DNA of 39,404 nt from a virus. This document shows, piece by piece, positions 30,434 through 35,487 of the stretch. The stretch lies in the IMG/VR virus record IMGVR_UViG_3300044533_000239, positions 1 to 39,404 of that record. One strand, written 5' to 3'. The position numbers and the translations under genes were made by a program. Position 1 is the stretch's first letter. Every line of letters starts with the position of its first letter. A model generated the notes under the pieces. That model saw only the letters and a list, made by a program, of their open reading frames with translations, was not told the origin of the DNA and did no database searches.

Positions 30434-30463
30434 ATAATACATATCTAGAGGGGTGGCTGGCAA
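30434..30463 (-). promoter_or_regulatory. Candidate promoter for the terminase and virion genes
   Basis: TTGCCA (30458-30463) and TATTAT (30434-30439) are separated by 18 bases on the minus strand, each matching 5 of 6 consensus bases. It lacks the ACTTGACA element of the other promoters, so it may be used at a different time. It would give a leader of roughly 475 bases before the terminase ATG. Confidence 0.5.
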
Positions 30464-30660
30464 GGCATACCACCGGTGCGTGGTTCTGGCCTGCCATGCT
30501 CACGCTGAGCGTTTGCTGGTGGTTGTCCGGCCTTCGAGACTGATTTAGCCCTGCCATACCCCGTACCCATGCGGGATACGTTCCGGCAAGTACTCATCGT
30601 GGGCAGTCGCCTATCGTTTGGCCTTGTGTGTTGGTGTCCGGTGGTTGTGTGGGTGCAGCA

Positions 30661-30688
30661 AATAGCCCGCCGGTTAGGGCGGGCTATT
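30661..30688 (-). terminator. Terminator of the accessory/replication operon
   Basis: A perfect 11-pair stem (arms 30661-30671 and 30678-30688, AATAGCCCGCC on either strand) encloses a six-base loop. On the minus strand it lies 35 bases past the stop of the sliding-clamp-like gene and ends ATTTG, a short U tract. The stem is symmetrical enough to work in both directions. Confidence 0.8.
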
Positions 30689-30722
30689 GTGTGCCGGTGT
30701 TCCGGCGTTGGGGTTTGGTTGG

Positions 30723-31334
30723 TTAGCTGCGTGGTTTGCAGGTCATCGTTAGCACGTGGATTGTTCCGGCGTGTGTCTCGATGGTGAATATCACGGGTTT
30801 TGTTGGGTTGGTGTAGTGGGTGAGTGTTGCGATGCTGTCCCGTTTCGCTTTACCCTGCTTGGTTGTTTTGGCGATGCGTTCTAGTTGCCATTGGCTAAGG
30901 CTGATAGGTGCAAACGGTTCTGGCGTGGCGGTTTGGGTTGCTGTCCATATTGTGCCGGTGTTCGGTGTTTCGTGTTGTGGGTTGTTGCCGGTGATTGTTC
31001 CGGCTGGTGTTGTTACTGTCCACGTGTCCAATGTTGCTGTGATGGTGGCCTGTGCTGATTTGCTGCTGATTTTGTTGGCGCTGTTTAGTGCTTTGGCTAC
31101 GTCTGCGGCGGGCAGTGTGAACTTGTCTGTAGTCGCTGTGTAGCCTTCGGTGTCTAACTCGTACCTAATCGCTGCATAACTATCGCAGGCTTCCACGATG
31201 GCATTGTTGCACGTGGCGAGCTGTAGCGGCTGCTTGTTTGGGTCTGTGCTGGCATATAGTGCGACTGTGGCAAATATGTCTGCAAGGGTGGATAGTTGTC
31301 CGGATATTTGACCGGTTTGGGTTTTGGTGTTCAT
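30723..31334 (-). CDS. DNA sliding-clamp-like protein (beta-clamp superfamily), 203 aa
   Basis: The pattern of a short clamp domain pair is visible: VEACDSYAAIRYELDTEGY, LPAADVAKALNSANK, a W-T-V-T-T-P-A-G-T-I-T-G strand, P-N-T-G-T-I-W, SLSQWQLERIAK and a terminal HVLTMTCKP corresponding to the MPxR end of beta clamps. Shortened clamps of this type occur in many actinophages. The ATG at 31334 is chosen, with AAAGGAA upstream and ATGA overlap with the gene before it; an open frame reaches 31418. No phage DNA polymerase is present, so it might modify host polymerase access. Confidence in the superfamily is moderate. Confidence 0.6.
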   Translation of the reverse strand: MNTKTQTGQISGQLSTLADIFATVALYASTDPNKQPLQLATCNNAIVEACDSYAAIRYELDTEGYTATTDKFTLPAADVAKALNSANKISSKSAQATITATLDTWTVTTPAGTITGNNPQHETPNTGTIWTATQTATPEPFAPISLSQWQLERIAKTTKQGKAKRDSIATLTHYTNPTKPVIFTIETHAGTIHVLTMTCKPRS

Positions 31335-31471
31335 TGTGCTGTTCCTTTTGTTTGGTTTGTTGGGTGGTTGCGGCGGCTGCGGTGTTCGCTGATTTTTCCG
31401 GCGATTACGGCGAGCCATAGCGGACTAGATAGGGCTAATGCGCTGTAGAACGTTGCTTCTGCTGTTGTCAT
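31331..31471 (-). CDS. Small one-helix membrane protein, 46 aa
   Basis: The frame from ATG at 31471 (MTTAEATFYSALALSSPLWL) has one hydrophobic segment at about 8-25 and a basic C-terminal tail (HRSRRNHPTNQTK). Both ends overlap neighbours by ATGA, which is strong evidence for a real gene in this tightly coupled chain. It probably sits in the membrane with the basic tail inside. Function unknown. Confidence 0.65.
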   Translation of the reverse strand: MTTAEATFYSALALSSPLWLAVIAGKISEHRSRRNHPTNQTKGTAQ

Positions 31472-31692
31472 TGGGTCACGCTTTCGCTAATGATTTGCTC
31501 TAGTCGGTTGATTTCGCTGGTCAGTGTGTTGATGAGGTCTAGCACGTTGATTGCCCCGCTAACTGATAGGCGTAGGGTTTCCGGTGTTCGATACCCAAGC
31601 CAGTCATCTAGACCCCATTCCGCAAGGGCGTTCTGAATTATCTCTAAAGCGTGGTCTAGTTGCTGTTGTTGTGTGGCTTCTGCGGTGCTCAT
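31468..31692 (-). CDS. Hypothetical helical protein, 74 aa
   Basis: The product is small, acidic and helical (LDHALEIIQNALAEWGLDDW, LINTLTSEINRLEQIISESV), possibly a coiled-coil dimer. ATGA overlaps link it to the 185-residue protein gene before it and the membrane protein gene after it. No recognised family. Confidence 0.65.
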   Translation of the reverse strand: MSTAEATQQQQLDHALEIIQNALAEWGLDDWLGYRTPETLRLSVSGAINVLDLINTLTSEINRLEQIISESVTQ

Positions 31693-32246
31693 CGGTCTAT
31701 TCCTCTCACAACGTCATCTAGCGCCATCTTTGCCCTGTGTAGGGCGTTGCTGGTGCGGTTTCGGCGTTCGTGGGCGTGTCCGGCTGTAATGATTGCGGTG
31801 TAATCTGCTTCGATTAGTGCGCTGATTTGTTGTAGATAGTGCTGCTCGATTAGTTCCATCGCTGCTGGCGGGAACCCTGCGAACTTGTTACCGTTCCACA
31901 CTGACGGGTTGTAGCGTTCGCTGATGTAGTGGCGGGGTTCACTTATTGGGAATACGAGCACGCGAACGGTGAAGCTGCCGCTGCTGGTTTCCCCGTTGCG
32001 GCCTGCGACATAATGCAGCACGATTTCAGCCTTGTTTGGGTCTTGGATTTTATCGGCTTTCACGTATGCGCTGCGGCCTTGTACCGTCAAGCTGTCGCTG
32101 CTGCGTAATGTGTGAACGGTGTCGCTGTCCATAATTGCGGCAAGGGCTTCGGCTGTTGGTTGTTCTTCGGCTGTTGGTTGGTTGGTTTCATCGTGTAAAC
32201 GCTCGATGATTTGCAGCGCTTCGGCTGCGGTTGTTGCTGTTTTCAT
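31689..32246 (-). CDS. Hypothetical protein led by the hairpin ribosome site, 185 aa
   Basis: The ATG at 32246 (MKTATTAAEALQIIERL) is chosen over a TTG at 32264, because GGGAG precedes it inside a conserved leader hairpin. The middle part is beta-rich (LTVQGRSAYVKADKI, GSFTVRVLVFPIS). The end is helical and basic (HAHERRNRTSNALHRAKMAL). No family recognised. It is the first gene of the final accessory block, driven by a promoter within the end of the 68-residue gene. No membrane segment or cysteine cluster. Confidence 0.7.
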   Translation of the reverse strand: MKTATTAAEALQIIERLHDETNQPTAEEQPTAEALAAIMDSDTVHTLRSSDSLTVQGRSAYVKADKIQDPNKAEIVLHYVAGRNGETSSGSFTVRVLVFPISEPRHYISERYNPSVWNGNKFAGFPPAAMELIEQHYLQQISALIEADYTAIITAGHAHERRNRTSNALHRAKMALDDVVRGIDR

Positions 32247-32252
32247 TGGTTT

Positions 32253-32268
32253 GCACTCTCCCAAGTGC
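32253..32268 (-). promoter_or_regulatory. Leader hairpin presenting the ribosome site, copy 2
   Basis: The transcript reads GCACT-TGGGAG-AGTGC: a five-pair stem with the GGGAG ribosome site in the six-base loop, seven bases before the ATG at 32246. Copy 1 at 34613-34628 has ACACT-TGGGAG-AGTGT, so the outer pair is G-C here and A-U there. A compensatory change of this kind supports real RNA pairing. Confidence 0.6.
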
Positions 32269-32296
32269 GGCGGCCTTGTTGGTTTGGCCTGATGTA

Positions 32297-32325
32297 TTTC
32301 TAACCTATTGCGGCGGTGTTGTCAA
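32297..32325 (-). promoter_or_regulatory. Promoter of the clamp-containing accessory block
   Basis: TTGACA (32320-32325) and TAGAAA (32297-32302) are spaced by 17 bases on the minus strand, and the -10 overlaps the stop codon of the 68-residue gene. The 12 bases CATTACTTGACA are identical to those of the promoter at 34654-34682. A second ACTTGACA lies 21 bases upstream (32341-32348), on the same face of the helix. Confidence 0.6.
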
Positions 32326-32506
32326 GTAATGTTTCTAGATTGTCAAGTGTTGCGGCTGCGATGATGTCGGCAAGTGGTGTGTCGAAGATTGGCCTGATGT
32401 GGCAGCGATGACCGGCGGCAGCTGTTCGGGCTTCGGTAAGTGTGTCATATATTCCGGCGAGCACACTTCCGGCGGCGGTGTTGTTGGTTTCGATTGTGTA
32501 GCGCAT
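32300..32506 (-). CDS. Hypothetical protein, 68 aa
   Basis: The product MRYTIETNNTAAGSVLAGIY continues with a helical Ala-rich part and LADIIAAATLDNLETLLDN. It is compact, without membrane segments. The start ATG at 32506 is preceded by TTATATAAAGT with no ribosome site, so the message may be leaderless, which is common in actinobacteria. Its 3' end contains the promoter of the next block. No family recognised. Confidence 0.55.
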   Translation of the reverse strand: MRYTIETNNTAAGSVLAGIYDTLTEARTAAAGHRCHIRPIFDTPLADIIAAATLDNLETLLDNTAAIG

Positions 32507-32692
32507 ACTTTATATAAGCAACGTTCGACCAAATTGTGTAAACGTATGTTTAGGTTTTTTGTGCGCTGTTAGTGGTTGCCGGTGGAATATTATCGGCGCA
32601 GGGTTTACGTGGTGTCGGCGGTTGGCGGTGGCGGAGTGGTGGCGGTAGCGGTAGCCCTATCAGGGGGTGACGGGGCTACCGGTACGGCGGGA
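32507..32692 (-). other. GC-rich spacer with hairpin and candidate promoter
   Basis: No open frame fits here. A perfect nine-pair stem (CGGTAGCCC/GGGCTACCG, 32649-32657 with 32673-32681) follows the stop of the membrane protein gene by 11 bases. It may end or slow transcription, though no U tract follows on the minus strand. Then come GGCGGT-type repeats (about 32606-32656). A TATATA box just before 32506 may start the next message. Confidence 0.5.
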
Positions 32693-32857
32693 TTATTTTT
32701 GTAGTTGGCGGTATGCCAAGTGGATGAATGGGTACACGCACAGCATTGTTGTTGCCCACCAGATTATTCCGGCATCTTTGCCGATGGTGGCGGCACACAC
32801 AAGCAAGGTGGTGGCGGTAGTGGTGGCCAATGATTTAGTGACGATGTGGTTAGTCAT
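32693..32857 (-). CDS. Small two-helix membrane protein, 54 aa
   Basis: The ATG at 32857 (MTNHIVTKSLATTTATTLLV) is chosen because it overlaps the stop before it by ATGA; the open frame reaches 32884. Two hydrophobic segments (about 10-26 and 30-46, including IIWWATTMLCVYPFIHLAY) and a polar basic end (RQLQK) are visible. It could act on the host membrane or in lysis timing; function unknown. Confidence 0.65.
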   Translation of the reverse strand: MTNHIVTKSLATTTATTLLVCAATIGKDAGIIWWATTMLCVYPFIHLAYRQLQK

Positions 32858-32988
32858 TGTGTGACCTGCATATCCATCAAGCAACCGCTATTTCCGCATT
32901 GTGGGCAGTGTTCGGTGTCTAGTCTGATTTCTAATTGTTCTTCGGTGTTTACTGTTTCGCACCAAGTACATACAACCGTGTTAGTCAT
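32854..32988 (-). CDS. Zinc-ribbon miniprotein, 44 aa
   Basis: The frame from ATG at 32988 has C7-T-W-C10 and C28-P-Q-C31-G, the classic two knuckles of a zinc ribbon, plus C36. It is too short for any other domain. TAATG and ATGA overlaps couple it to its neighbours. Such ribbons bind nucleic acid or protein partners such as RNA polymerase; the target is unknown. Confidence 0.7.
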   Translation of the reverse strand: MTNTVVCTWCETVNTEEQLEIRLDTEHCPQCGNSGCLMDMQVTQ

Positions 32989-33173
32989 TACCATTCACCT
33001 ACTTCGATGTCGTGGCTTGCATCGGCAACGTTCCAACCGTATTCGTCACGTAGTAGTTCTGCGGCTAATGCTTCTGCACCATCCTCATCGGTGGCGTAAA
33101 CGTTTACAACTGTTGAGAAATAATCGCCGGTGAACCTGACGGTGTAAAGGGTGTCTGAAATTGTGTTAGTCAT
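32988..33173 (-). CDS. Hypothetical small protein, 61 aa
   Basis: The start at 33173 (MTNTISDTLYTVRFTGDYFS) has AGGAGA upstream and an ATGA overlap; the open frame extends to 33230. The middle reads VVNVYATDEDGAEALAAELL, like a small beta-alpha fold, and the C-terminus is acidic (HDIEVGEW). The first four residues MTNT recur in the next gene, and MTN in the one after. No recognised family. Confidence 0.65.
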   Translation of the reverse strand: MTNTISDTLYTVRFTGDYFSTVVNVYATDEDGAEALAAELLRDEYGWNVADASHDIEVGEW

Positions 33174-33322
33174 TGGTTGTTCTCCTGTTCTAGTTTGTCG
33201 GTAATCCAAGCGATGCAACGTTTGTGCCATTCGAGGGCATCCTCATACAAGGCCATGCTGTCGAAGTCGCTTTCGTTTAGGTAGTCAATTAGGCCGAGAA
33301 TGTCATTTCGTGTTGCTTTCAT
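33170..33322 (-). CDS. Hypothetical small helical protein, 50 aa
   Basis: An open frame, MKATRNDILGLIDYLNESDF, has ATGA overlaps at both ends. It is helical and acidic with one cysteine and a WHKRCIAWITDKLEQ stretch. The overlaps make it very likely real. No family recognised. Confidence 0.65.
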   Translation of the reverse strand: MKATRNDILGLIDYLNESDFDSMALYEDALEWHKRCIAWITDKLEQENNQ

Positions 33323-33627
33323 TCGTTGTCCCCGTAGATATCTGTTTGTATTTCTACGATGTCAAGTTCGCAAGGGTTTTCTGTAATGAAGTAACCAATA
33401 CGGTTTACGAAAAATAGTCCGTTCACTATCCAGCTGCCGGTGTCGCCATCCATCCAAGTCCATACATTTTGTGGTGGTTGTGCAGCGACATAAGCGTATT
33501 CTTCGCCGTATGTCTCGAACATTGTTCCGTTCCACGGTGCTTCGGTGACAAGGTGGTTTTGGATGGGCAGATATTTTTCTGTCCAAGCATCTAAAGCTTG
33601 TTCCATTTCCAGTGTGATTTCGCTCAT
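33319..33627 (-). CDS. Hypothetical protein, 102 aa
   Basis: The product is rich in aromatic and acidic residues (WTEKYLPIQNHLVTEAPWNG, VWTWMDGDTGSWIVNGLFFV) and ends in an acidic tail. There is no membrane helix despite the hydrophobic patch. It could mimic DNA or bind a host protein, given its strong negative charge, but this is conjecture. Coupled by ATGA to both neighbours. Confidence 0.65.
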   Translation of the reverse strand: MSEITLEMEQALDAWTEKYLPIQNHLVTEAPWNGTMFETYGEEYAYVAAQPPQNVWTWMDGDTGSWIVNGLFFVNRIGYFITENPCELDIVEIQTDIYGDNE

Positions 33628-33848
33628 TCGTCACCATCCAATACTTGTGTAGCGGCGTTTTCCATGTAATCGCCGATAGGCATATTGTCAATAACGTCAT
33701 CGCAAACTCCGCTGATATCGAGCCATTCGTCATCGGTAATTTTGCGGCCAAGTACGTCTATGAACCAGTCTTTAGTCCAGTAGGCGATAACGATTTCGTC
33801 ATCTTTGTCAAGTTGTTTTAGTTGTTCTATTGCATATTTGACTTTCAT
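33624..33848 (-). CDS. Hypothetical acidic protein, 74 aa
   Basis: The product MKVKYAIEQLKQLDKDDEIV includes YWTKDWF and ends DYMENAATQVLDGDE. The first 25 residues resemble the beginning of a small family of phage proteins (K-x-A-I-E-x-L-x-x-L-D-x-D-D-E-I), likely alpha-beta. ATGA overlaps on both sides. Function unknown. Confidence 0.7.
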   Translation of the reverse strand: MKVKYAIEQLKQLDKDDEIVIAYWTKDWFIDVLGRKITDDEWLDISGVCDDVIDNMPIGDYMENAATQVLDGDE

Positions 33849-34000
33849 TTTGCTGTCTCCATTTCGTGTTGTTCGATGTGTGCTTCTAGGTCATCTATTT
33901 CCCAATAGACGTAGGTGTGTCCGCAAGTTAGACATTCTGCGCAAGGATTACCAGCAAATTGTGACCGGTAAAATAGCCACGATGGGCTGTCAAGTTTCAT
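33845..34000 (-). CDS. Zinc-finger-like miniprotein, 51 aa
   Basis: The frame from ATG at 34000 encodes C20-A-E-C23-L-T-C26-G-H28 followed by H41 and H45 (AHIEQHEME). The spacing suggests a small Cys-Cys-His-His finger. It ends by ATGA overlap with the next gene and begins by ATGA overlap with the 205-residue gene. It probably binds nucleic acid or a host protein. Confidence 0.65.
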   Translation of the reverse strand: MKLDSPSWLFYRSQFAGNPCAECLTCGHTYVYWEIDDLEAHIEQHEMETAK

Positions 34001-34611
34001 TGGTCACTCCAGAATGGCATTAGGGCAAGGTCGCCATTTTCGGTGAACCGGCGGGCATCGCCACCATCCAAGTATCCACGTATTGCTTCTTCGTTGGTTA
34101 GGTTTTCGATTTGTTCGTAGCCTAAACGCTTTAGACGGCGGCAGATATCACGGAATTGTTCCGCTATTTCTTCGCCGGTGTCGCCATCCAATGTGGTGTA
34201 GTTCCCGTTTTCATCTTCTCCGCATACCTCGACAGTGAATGTGTTTTCGTGGCTGTAAAAATTTGCGTAATCGTTTGGTGATAGACGTGCGTTGTCTGCG
34301 TTGTGCCATTCCAATTTAGGTGCATCTGCAGCGTAAACTTCCCCGTAGATAGCTACACCATCGCCCTGTCTGTGTGACAATGACCAGTTCAGTTTTAGTC
34401 CGGTACGTTTCGCCAATTCGTTAGTGCTGATTTGACCAATGAATTCGCCGGTCAATTCCGTGACTAATTCACCATTGAGATATTCGGTTATTTCGTCACT
34501 CTCGATGTATTCATACATCCAAGTATTCATTTTTTCTAATGCGTTTTGGCGAGCTGCATCTGACAGTTCGTCTAACGTAAACACGGTTTTTGTTACCGTT
34601 ATTTGTTTCAT
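33997..34611 (-). CDS. Conserved phage protein with QGDG motif, 204 aa
   Basis: The order of features is a beta strand (QITVTKTVFTLDELSDAARQ), a helix (ALEKMNTWMYEY), the loop SHRQGDGVAIYGEV, an acidic Y-S-H-E-N-T-F-T-V-E-V strand, and a helical C-terminal part (IAEQFRDICRRLKRLGYEQI). It resembles a family of unknown function found in diverse phages with the same Q-G-D-G-A/V loop. ATG at 34611 is chosen, preceded by the ribosome-site hairpin of copy 1; a GTG at 34614 also fits. It is first in the block transcribed from the promoter at 34654-34682. Confidence 0.7.
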   Translation of the reverse strand: MKQITVTKTVFTLDELSDAARQNALEKMNTWMYEYIESDEITEYLNGELVTELTGEFIGQISTNELAKRTGLKLNWSLSHRQGDGVAIYGEVYAADAPKLEWHNADNARLSPNDYANFYSHENTFTVEVCGEDENGNYTTLDGDTGEEIAEQFRDICRRLKRLGYEQIENLTNEEAIRGYLDGGDARRFTENGDLALMPFWSDQ

Positions 34612-34612
34612 C

Positions 34613-34628
34613 ACACTCTCCCAAGTGT
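34613..34628 (-). promoter_or_regulatory. Leader hairpin presenting the ribosome site, copy 1
   Basis: The transcript reads ACACT-TGGGAG-AGTGT, a five-pair stem with the ribosome site in its loop, immediately before ATG at 34611. The predicted message starts with another stem-loop, CCCCG-CTTGA-CGGGG (34631-34645), close to its 5' end. Copy 2 at 32253-32268 has the same layout. Confidence 0.6.
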
Positions 34629-34653
34629 TCCCCCGTCAAGCGGGGCTAAAGAG

Positions 34654-34682
34654 AGTATGACTAACTATTTTTGGAATGTCAA
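34654..34682 (-). promoter_or_regulatory. Promoter of the miniprotein block
   Basis: TTGACA (34677-34682) and CATACT (34654-34659) are separated by 17 bases on the minus strand. The element is extended upstream as CATTACTTGACA, identical over 12 bases to the promoter at 32297-32325. It lies right after the stop of the 41-residue gene (34690) and drives the block starting at 34611. Confidence 0.75.
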
Positions 34683-34689
34683 GTAATGA

Positions 34690-34815
34690 TTAGAAATAGT
34701 TTTTGTGCCAGTAGTCAAGCAACTGCGCTAAGCGTTCATCGTTCCATTCCGGCAACGGGTTGTCTTCGGCACGATACGGTTCGGTAATCTCGAAAAGTTC
34801 AGGTTGTTCGTTCAT
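34690..34815 (-). CDS. Hypothetical miniprotein, 41 aa
   Basis: The frame MNEQPELFEITEPYRAEDNP begins with ATG overlapping the previous stop by ATGA and ends in a W-H-K-N-Y-F helix. It is acidic with several Trp and Tyr residues. Being last before a promoter and having the coupled start, it is likely genuine. No family recognised. Confidence 0.6.
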   Translation of the reverse strand: MNEQPELFEITEPYRAEDNPLPEWNDERLAQLLDYWHKNYF

Positions 34816-35135
34816 TGTTTTGTCCACACTCTGATTGGCCTTGCGTGGCAAGCAACCCGATGCGATGGCCTGTATTGGTTTGTTGGTCGAATGAGTTTGT
34901 TTGCAGCTGCGTGACGTAGTACTGCGCCGATGGCACGTGGTTCGTGTGGTGTTGGTAGTTGTGCGTCAGCGAGTGCTTGCCAGATGTCGTCTGTTGTGAA
35001 CTCGTTGGTGTTGGTAGCGGTAGCGACAACGATGCGATAGCACTCTGCGAACCATTCAGGGTTGGTAGAGGTAGCGACTTGTGCGATTGCTTTTTCTTTG
35101 GCTTCGGTAGCTGCGATGATGTCGAGAAGGTTCAT
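34812..35135 (-). CDS. Winged-helix-like protein, 107 aa
   Basis: The middle (EFTTDDIWQALADAQLPTPH, then RAIGAVLRHAAANKLIRPTN) has the spacing of a winged-helix DNA-binding fold, with a basic wing (YRPSHRVACHARPIRVW). Proteins of this shape are frequent near replication genes in actinophages. The ATG at 35135 is favoured over a GTG at 35144 because it forms an ATGA overlap and has AGGGTGGG upstream. It may bind phage DNA, but a regulatory or replication role is not settled. Confidence 0.65.
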   Translation of the reverse strand: MNLLDIIAATEAKEKAIAQVATSTNPEWFAECYRIVVATATNTNEFTTDDIWQALADAQLPTPHEPRAIGAVLRHAAANKLIRPTNQYRPSHRVACHARPIRVWTKQ

Positions 35136-35368
35136 TGTTCCCACCCTAAGTTTGCTGCACGCCAGTTCACCGGACTGAAGTTTGCTTCAACACTTTTCTT
35201 TTCTTCGATGCCGTTGTACAGGCGAACGATGTGGAGACAGGGGTCGTCGCCTTCTTGCCATTGTTCGTCTTCTGTGGCGGTAGTTGGTGTGCCGTCATGT
35301 GTTGAGCAGACTGGTGGGCTGCAATATCCCATGTCGTAACCTATTTTGATCCATTCGTCGAAATTCAT
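35132..35368 (-). CDS. Conserved small phage protein with C/H motif, 78 aa
   Basis: The motif Y-C-S-P-P-V-C-S-T-H-D-G-T-P, then E-G-D-D-P-C-L-H-I-V-R-L-Y, is a recurring pattern in small actinophage proteins of unknown role. Cys and His residues suggest a metal site. ATGA overlaps on both sides. It ends in NWRAANLGWEQ. Confidence 0.7.
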   Translation of the reverse strand: MNFDEWIKIGYDMGYCSPPVCSTHDGTPTTATEDEQWQEGDDPCLHIVRLYNGIEEKKSVEANFSPVNWRAANLGWEQ

Positions 35369-35487
35369 TTGACCCTCACCATTTCTATTTGTTTATGTTT
35401 GTTGCTGCACGTTGGTGGTTCTTTGACCGTGACGTGTGTAATCATGCGCTGTTGGCAGCGTGGGCATGACCAATGTTCGCCCTTCAT
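35365..35487 (-). CDS. Zinc-ribbon-like miniprotein, 40 aa
   Basis: The frame MKGEHWSCPRCQQRMITHVT has C8-P-R-C11 and a later C27 plus H31, and is basic overall. It starts by TAATG overlap and ends by ATGA overlap, so translation is coupled to both neighbours. It could bind nucleic acid. The single CxxC with a distant Cys/His pair is a minimal metal site. Confidence 0.65.
   Translation of the reverse strand: MKGEHWSCPRCQQRMITHVTVKEPPTCSNKHKQIEMVRVK

Follow-up and report, generated by a model that had tools for sequence, protein, structure and literature searches.

The viral record IMGVR_UViG_3300044533_000239 (39,404 bases; this whole stretch is called the window here) contains two copies of a short leader element, both on the minus strand, in which the Shine-Dalgarno (SD) sequence of the following gene lies in the loop of a small RNA hairpin. 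Comparison with related phages indicates that this is a real, covarying leader element, previously undescribed as far as we searched and so far limited to a single clade of actinophages, all uncultivated; how it acts we infer. Each copy belongs to a module composed of a putative promoter, a hairpin near the predicted 5' end of the message, the SD hairpin and the first gene of an operon:

34677..34682, minus strand: module 1 -35 box TTGACA, within the repeated 12-mer CATTACTTGACA (34677-34688); predicted from sequence only
34654..34659, minus strand: module 1 -10 box CATACT, 17-bp spacer; predicted
34631..34645, minus strand: module 1 5' hairpin CCCCG-CTTGA-CGGGG, starting 8 nt past the -10 box, at the predicted 5' end
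34613..34628, minus strand: module 1 SD hairpin ACACT-[TGGGAG]-AGTGT, loop at 34618-34623, 6 nt from SD to ATG
33997..34611, minus strand: module 1 first gene, 204 aa, ATG at 34611, phrog_5162 (function unknown)
32320..32325, minus strand: module 2 -35 box TTGACA, within the repeated 12-mer CATTACTTGACA (32320-32331); predicted
32297..32302, minus strand: module 2 -10 box TAGAAA, a weak match, 17-bp spacer; predicted
32272..32289, minus strand: module 2 5' hairpin GGCC-AAACCAACAA-GGCC (N10 loop), starting 7 nt past the -10 box
32253..32268, minus strand: module 2 SD hairpin GCACT-[TGGGAG]-AGTGC, loop at 32258-32263, 11 nt from SD to ATG
31689..32246, minus strand: module 2 first gene, 185 aa, no family match; unrelated genes take its place in relatives
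30447..35391, minus strand: hypervariable cassette containing both modules

This layout confirms the first-pass annotation, which had described two gene blocks that start with the same architecture. In both modules the SD stem is 5 bp long and carries a UGGGAG hexaloop with the SD inside, and the outer stem pair is A-U in module 1 versus G-C in module 2, a compensatory change that the annotation had also pointed out and that is real. Folding of both window leaders returned the hairpins as drawn, plus a U-G pair that closes a GGGA tetraloop, with z-scores of only -1.5 and -1.1. On their own, these copies are suggestive rather than proof, as a repeated 14-mer with one compensatory pair in 39 kb could reflect chance or a recent duplication. 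We accept the element as real because its relatives settle the question that two copies leave weak.

An exact search of IMG/VR with the 14-mer identified related contigs that have the same module, mostly twice per contig and with new stems already present, together with many chance matches. Because of the latter, loci were chosen instead with a terminase profile, which is free of hairpin bias; built from 5 relatives, the profile yielded 80 loci, and about a quarter of these relatives have 2-3 element copies per phage. Selection blind to the stem, based on a promoter, TGGGAG and a start codon, was applied to the 80 loci, the window and the relatives found earlier. In this stem-blind set, 4-6 Watson-Crick pairs enclose a loop of exactly six bases in 31 of 32 copies, and moving the register by 1-2 positions leaves 0-2 pairs. 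When TGGGAG sequences ahead of an open reading frame (ORF) were counted, 39/95 had a stem of 4 bp or more, with a distinct gap at 2-3 bp, against a background of 3/269 for TGGGAG elsewhere and 10/2461 for permuted hexamers. The first-pass annotation had held that relatives keeping GGGAG while losing the pairing would speak against the element; by both counts, relatives within the group keep the two together. The copies always lie directly 5' of start codons, within an accessory cassette, and exact searches with two further versions of the stem found start-codon copies with a promoter only in this phage group. Other SD loops sought in the same clade gave only chance matches or a few variant loops, and megablast of the region against named phages gave no match.

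Covariation was scored on 34 distinct copies chosen for having at least 4 pairs, a choice that leaves the stem-blind count as the unbiased test. Their stems include ACACT, GCACT, ACAGT, CAGT, ACGCT, AACGCT and AGCT as well as CCGT, CTAGA, CTGAA, GCCTA, ATAGA and ATAGT, each with its complement; 96.5% of cells are paired, and all five pairs vary on both sides. The covariation score of the SD stem was 0.930, compared with 0.255 +/- 0.036 for shuffled alignments and at most 0.104 for slid registers. The shuffled controls ignore relatedness, which makes the slid registers and the stem-blind count the stronger controls. In close relatives that share a gene, its leaders differ by a matched C-G to G-C swap (L177/L178 versus L174), and in the stem-blind set the four inner stem positions contain no G-U pairs. 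TGGGAG forms the loop in 33 of the 34 rows, with U at position 1 in almost all copies and C in a few, and the variants CGGGAG, TTGGAG and TGGAGG still place the SD in the loop. A related form, CTAG-A[CGGGAG]A-CTAG, which contains an A.A mismatch, occurs in L184, L187, L191, L220 and L226. The class-1 5' hairpins, most copies of which follow the pattern CCCNN-CNNRA-NNGGG, also covary (100% of cells paired; score 0.424 versus 0.180 shuffled), and the 5' hairpin of module 2 is extended or replaced in relatives (GGCCATT-AAACC-AATGGCC; AGATCG-N9-CGATCT). Selection acts on the folded shape of the RNA leader element, and the covariation in relatives supports the earlier suggestion of a small structured RNA element that holds the ribosome site in its loop ahead of unlike first genes.

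Our preferred reading, which we hold with about even confidence, is that the element is a portable, structured two-hairpin 5' leader that provides an exposed SD, a protected 5' end and similar, context-independent expression of the operons behind it. Transcription from the predicted sigma-70/SigA-type promoter would begin just upstream of the 5'-terminal hairpin, which probably guards the message against 5'-end-dependent decay. The second hairpin, 4-6 bp capped by the six-base UGGGAG loop with the SD, has pairing that is backed by covariation and is predicted in silico to hold the SD unpaired irrespective of the downstream gene; the 30S subunit would dock on this loop, melting the marginally stable stem. 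Folded from the predicted +1, 43 copies gave a median probability of 0.92 for the SD stem and 0.98 for an unpaired GGA. The SD hairpins have a mean energy of -5.5 kcal/mol (range -3.7 to -7.9 kcal/mol), and ribosomes overcome stems in such an energy range during initiation. The loop is probably constant since UGGGAG would combine a U-G-closed GGGA (GNRA-type) tetraloop with the GGAG core, so that its constancy alone needs no protein. By putting the leader ahead of the first genes of 2-3 operons in a swappable accessory cassette, these phages would obtain similar expression whatever the context; the first genes behind the leader vary among phages while the leader persists. The RecE-like exonuclease operon in the same phage group has a plain AGGAGG leader, and the hairpin is therefore not a general host requirement.

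Several observations weigh against this proposal. Of the 43 leaders, about ten have a different predicted fold. AGGAGG without a stem would be a simpler route if only high expression were intended, and the small number of loop changes tolerated is also compatible with a binding protein. In addition, L171 carries this cassette with its promoter and 5' hairpin but shows no SD hairpin, only a plain AAGGAG, so that at least one relative can do without the SD hairpin.

It is possible, though we think it less likely, that the element is instead a translational operator, its UGGGAG hexaloop recognised by a protein of the phage or the host irrespective of the stem; as with CsrA, the bound protein would block, or set the timing of, ribosome access to the two operons together. 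A near-invariant loop on a fully turned-over stem is the signature of a protein site recognised through its loop, the element is present on only 2-3 operons per phage, and the complete lack of copies in L171 is what would be expected had a trans-acting factor been lost. CsrA/RsmA hairpins are similar in having GGA at positions 3-5 of a hexaloop that overlaps the SD, on a short stem of free sequence, and the ANGGAN hexaloop of CsrA/RsmE places its GGA in the same way (PMC7652899). The element differs from ANGGAN in that position 1 is U, whereas CsrA prefers A, and the last position is G; loop variants also occur. A search of 20 phage records for CsrA (PF02599) found none, the host lying outside that search. 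Moreover, the only near-universal cassette proteins are a sliding-clamp-like protein, an acidic peptide of 41-55 aa and a winged-helix protein, and L171 has all of them without the hairpin. Of the first-pass suggestions, the shared structured element is supported; a phage protein that would bind it and switch the two genes together finds no support among the cassette-wide proteins, which include no known RNA binder, or in the search for CsrA. A more specific version, that a dedicated factor of no known family, phage-encoded or host-recruited, reads UGGGAG independently of the stem and governs a small translational regulon by a CsrA-like logic that evolved separately in actinobacterial viruses, seems to us doubtful.

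Other explanations fit the data poorly. Cleavage of an exposed GGAG by an endonuclease for timed inactivation of the mRNA, comparable to T4 RegB, is quite unlikely: RegB sites, which favour A-rich 3' sequence, are in other cases inhibited when folded into secondary structure (PMC3014915), the host here is presumably an actinobacterium, and no RegB homologue turned up, although no search was aimed at RegB. That the inverted repeat is the DNA site of a dimeric regulator and overlaps the SD by chance has very little probability and is largely refuted. The arms do lie about one helical turn apart, and the lack of G-U pairs in the four inner stem positions, seen in the stem-blind set, is the sole feature that also fits DNA. 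However, the arms often differ within one genome (ACGCT/CTAGA in L185, CTGAA/ATAGT in L187, CACT/AGCT in L177), such that one dimeric regulator could not read them all, a difference to which an RNA stem is indifferent; furthermore, the invariant part is the non-palindromic centre TGGGAG and the spacing is exactly 6 in every case. Ordinary SD sequences with chance flanking pairs, spread by duplication, could be imagined from the window, where a pair of copies proves little, and the unrelated phages L022/L114 do repeat TTGGGAGAG SDs at many starts without conserved pairing. We nonetheless regard this as extremely unlikely given the excess of stems before ORFs (39/95, versus 3/269 elsewhere and 10/2461 permuted), the covariation score (0.930 versus 0.255 shuffled) and the matched C-G to G-C swaps between same-gene leaders (L177/L178 versus L174). 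The stem-blind test rules it out.

The first-pass statement that no described element has this form was too strong, because cluster K mycobacteriophages contain a close architectural analogue, though not the same element. Their Start-Associated Sequence (SAS) is a 13-bp sequence, GGGATAGGAGCCC, found within a few nt of start codons, and about half of the SAS copies have an Extended SAS (ESAS) just upstream, consisting of a SigA-like promoter and a 17-bp imperfect inverted repeat; the authors reported scant support for ESAS hairpins in mRNA, and the function is unknown (PMC3203893, PMC11373665, PMC12699233). Like the element in the window, the SAS is a short conserved element of actinophages that surrounds the SD and precedes the starts of several accessory genes, and its GGG/CCC are able to pair around AGGAG in a way that resembles the SD-loop hairpin. 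It differs in copy number, with 11-19 copies per genome versus 2-3 here, and in sequence, as the element here is RCACT-TGGGAG-AGTGY and has many other stems, none of them SAS-like. In four cluster K genomes that we scanned, the 3-bp GGG/CCC arms are constant and most of the variants disrupt pairing (the one exception is CGG/CCG in Pixie), so that the SAS behaves like a sequence motif, and the present element like a structure. Upstream of the SD hairpin there are a predicted SigA-like promoter and an inverted repeat, but there are no 17-bp conserved half sites, and both hairpins here covary as RNA and sit downstream of the -10 box. The element plausibly works like SAS/ESAS; judged by its sequence, it is not a member of that family.

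Small translational operators at phage translation starts have precedents, among them the MS2 replicase hairpin with its constant loop letters. The T4 gene 43 hairpin and the T4 RegB sites are similar to the present element in placing a small hairpin or an exposed GGAG, with a constant loop, at a phage translation start (PMC3014915). These MS2 and T4 sites are gene-specific autoregulatory or nuclease sites, whereas here one leader stands ahead of several unlike, exchangeable genes. Rfam gave nothing at the gathering score in the window, where the best sub-threshold matches were eukaryotic chance matches, and no comparable hairpin set was found in the genomes of Streptomyces Beephvirinae, ct2KA10 and cluster K. 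A literature search on GNRA tetraloops containing an SD and on described phage families of SD-loop hairpins returned nothing on point, with most subscription journals outside that search.

The window encodes a phrog_38 terminase, a portal, a capsid protein, RecE-like and annealing proteins and WhiB, and its capsid protein is at most 45% identical to those of Streptomyces Beephvirinae phages. Judging from these genes, the window is that of an actinophage, and its host is presumably an actinobacterium. The group to which it belongs is a large set of uncultivated actinophages of 38-40 kb whose terminase and capsid are distantly related to those of Streptomyces Beephvirinae; no prophage or host emerged when bacterial genomes were scanned for its TerL and capsid. 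Relatives with ~94% identical terminase DNA (L154, L157-L160) have a different ~3.7-5 kb at the position corresponding to 30447-35391, without the modules, so that an entire accessory cassette of about 4-5 kb is exchanged between these phages. In L186/L187/L190/L191, the elements and the clamp gene are on the strand opposite to the terminase. Three protein families mark the cassette:

30723-31418, minus strand: cassette-wide clamp-like protein, ~205 aa, two-domain sliding-clamp fold by Foldseek
L185:5053-5751 and L186:5939-6577: the clamp-like protein in relatives
34690-34815, minus strand: acidic protein, 41 aa (41-55 aa across cassettes), in 21/21 element-bearing cassettes
34812-35138, minus strand: winged-helix protein, ~108 aa, PadR/MarR-like (weak E), in 20/21 element-bearing cassettes

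These families are present at 20-21 of the 21 element-bearing loci versus 2/30 others, and of the two exceptions, L226 actually has the CGGGAG form and L171 has the plain AAGGAG. The element is therefore tied to the cassette strongly, not absolutely. Foldseek matched the clamp-like protein to DnaN/PCNA (best E 1.6e-6); its relatives match the phrog_947 processivity factor and end C-terminally in LLMPVRL. The predicted fold indicates a short phage clamp, not a three-domain DnaN. The acidic peptide contains, in relatives, QPSLFDD, which resembles the canonical clamp-binding motif (MNEQPELFEI in the window), and it may bind a host or phage clamp. The winged-helix protein has an almost invariant C-terminus, CHARPIRVW. 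Another cassette type has an analogous leader, with a CTAGTC-type hairpin first and then an SD hairpin before the ATG; its SD hairpins include AACAT[CGGGAG]GTGTT, ACCC[TGGGAG]GGGT and ACCC[TGGAGG]GGGT (L160:7004, L224:1776, L227:4272; minus strand).

Together, these results provide an RNA element at translation starts that has firm backing from covariation, and what was a suspected motif becomes a leader structure that can be tested. It is a cleaner counterpart to the long-unexplained SAS/ESAS of cluster K phages, where the question of pairing is open and here is answered. If a binding factor exists, the element immediately defines its regulon; if none does, it would represent a compact leader of natural origin that insulates the ribosome site against the sequence downstream.

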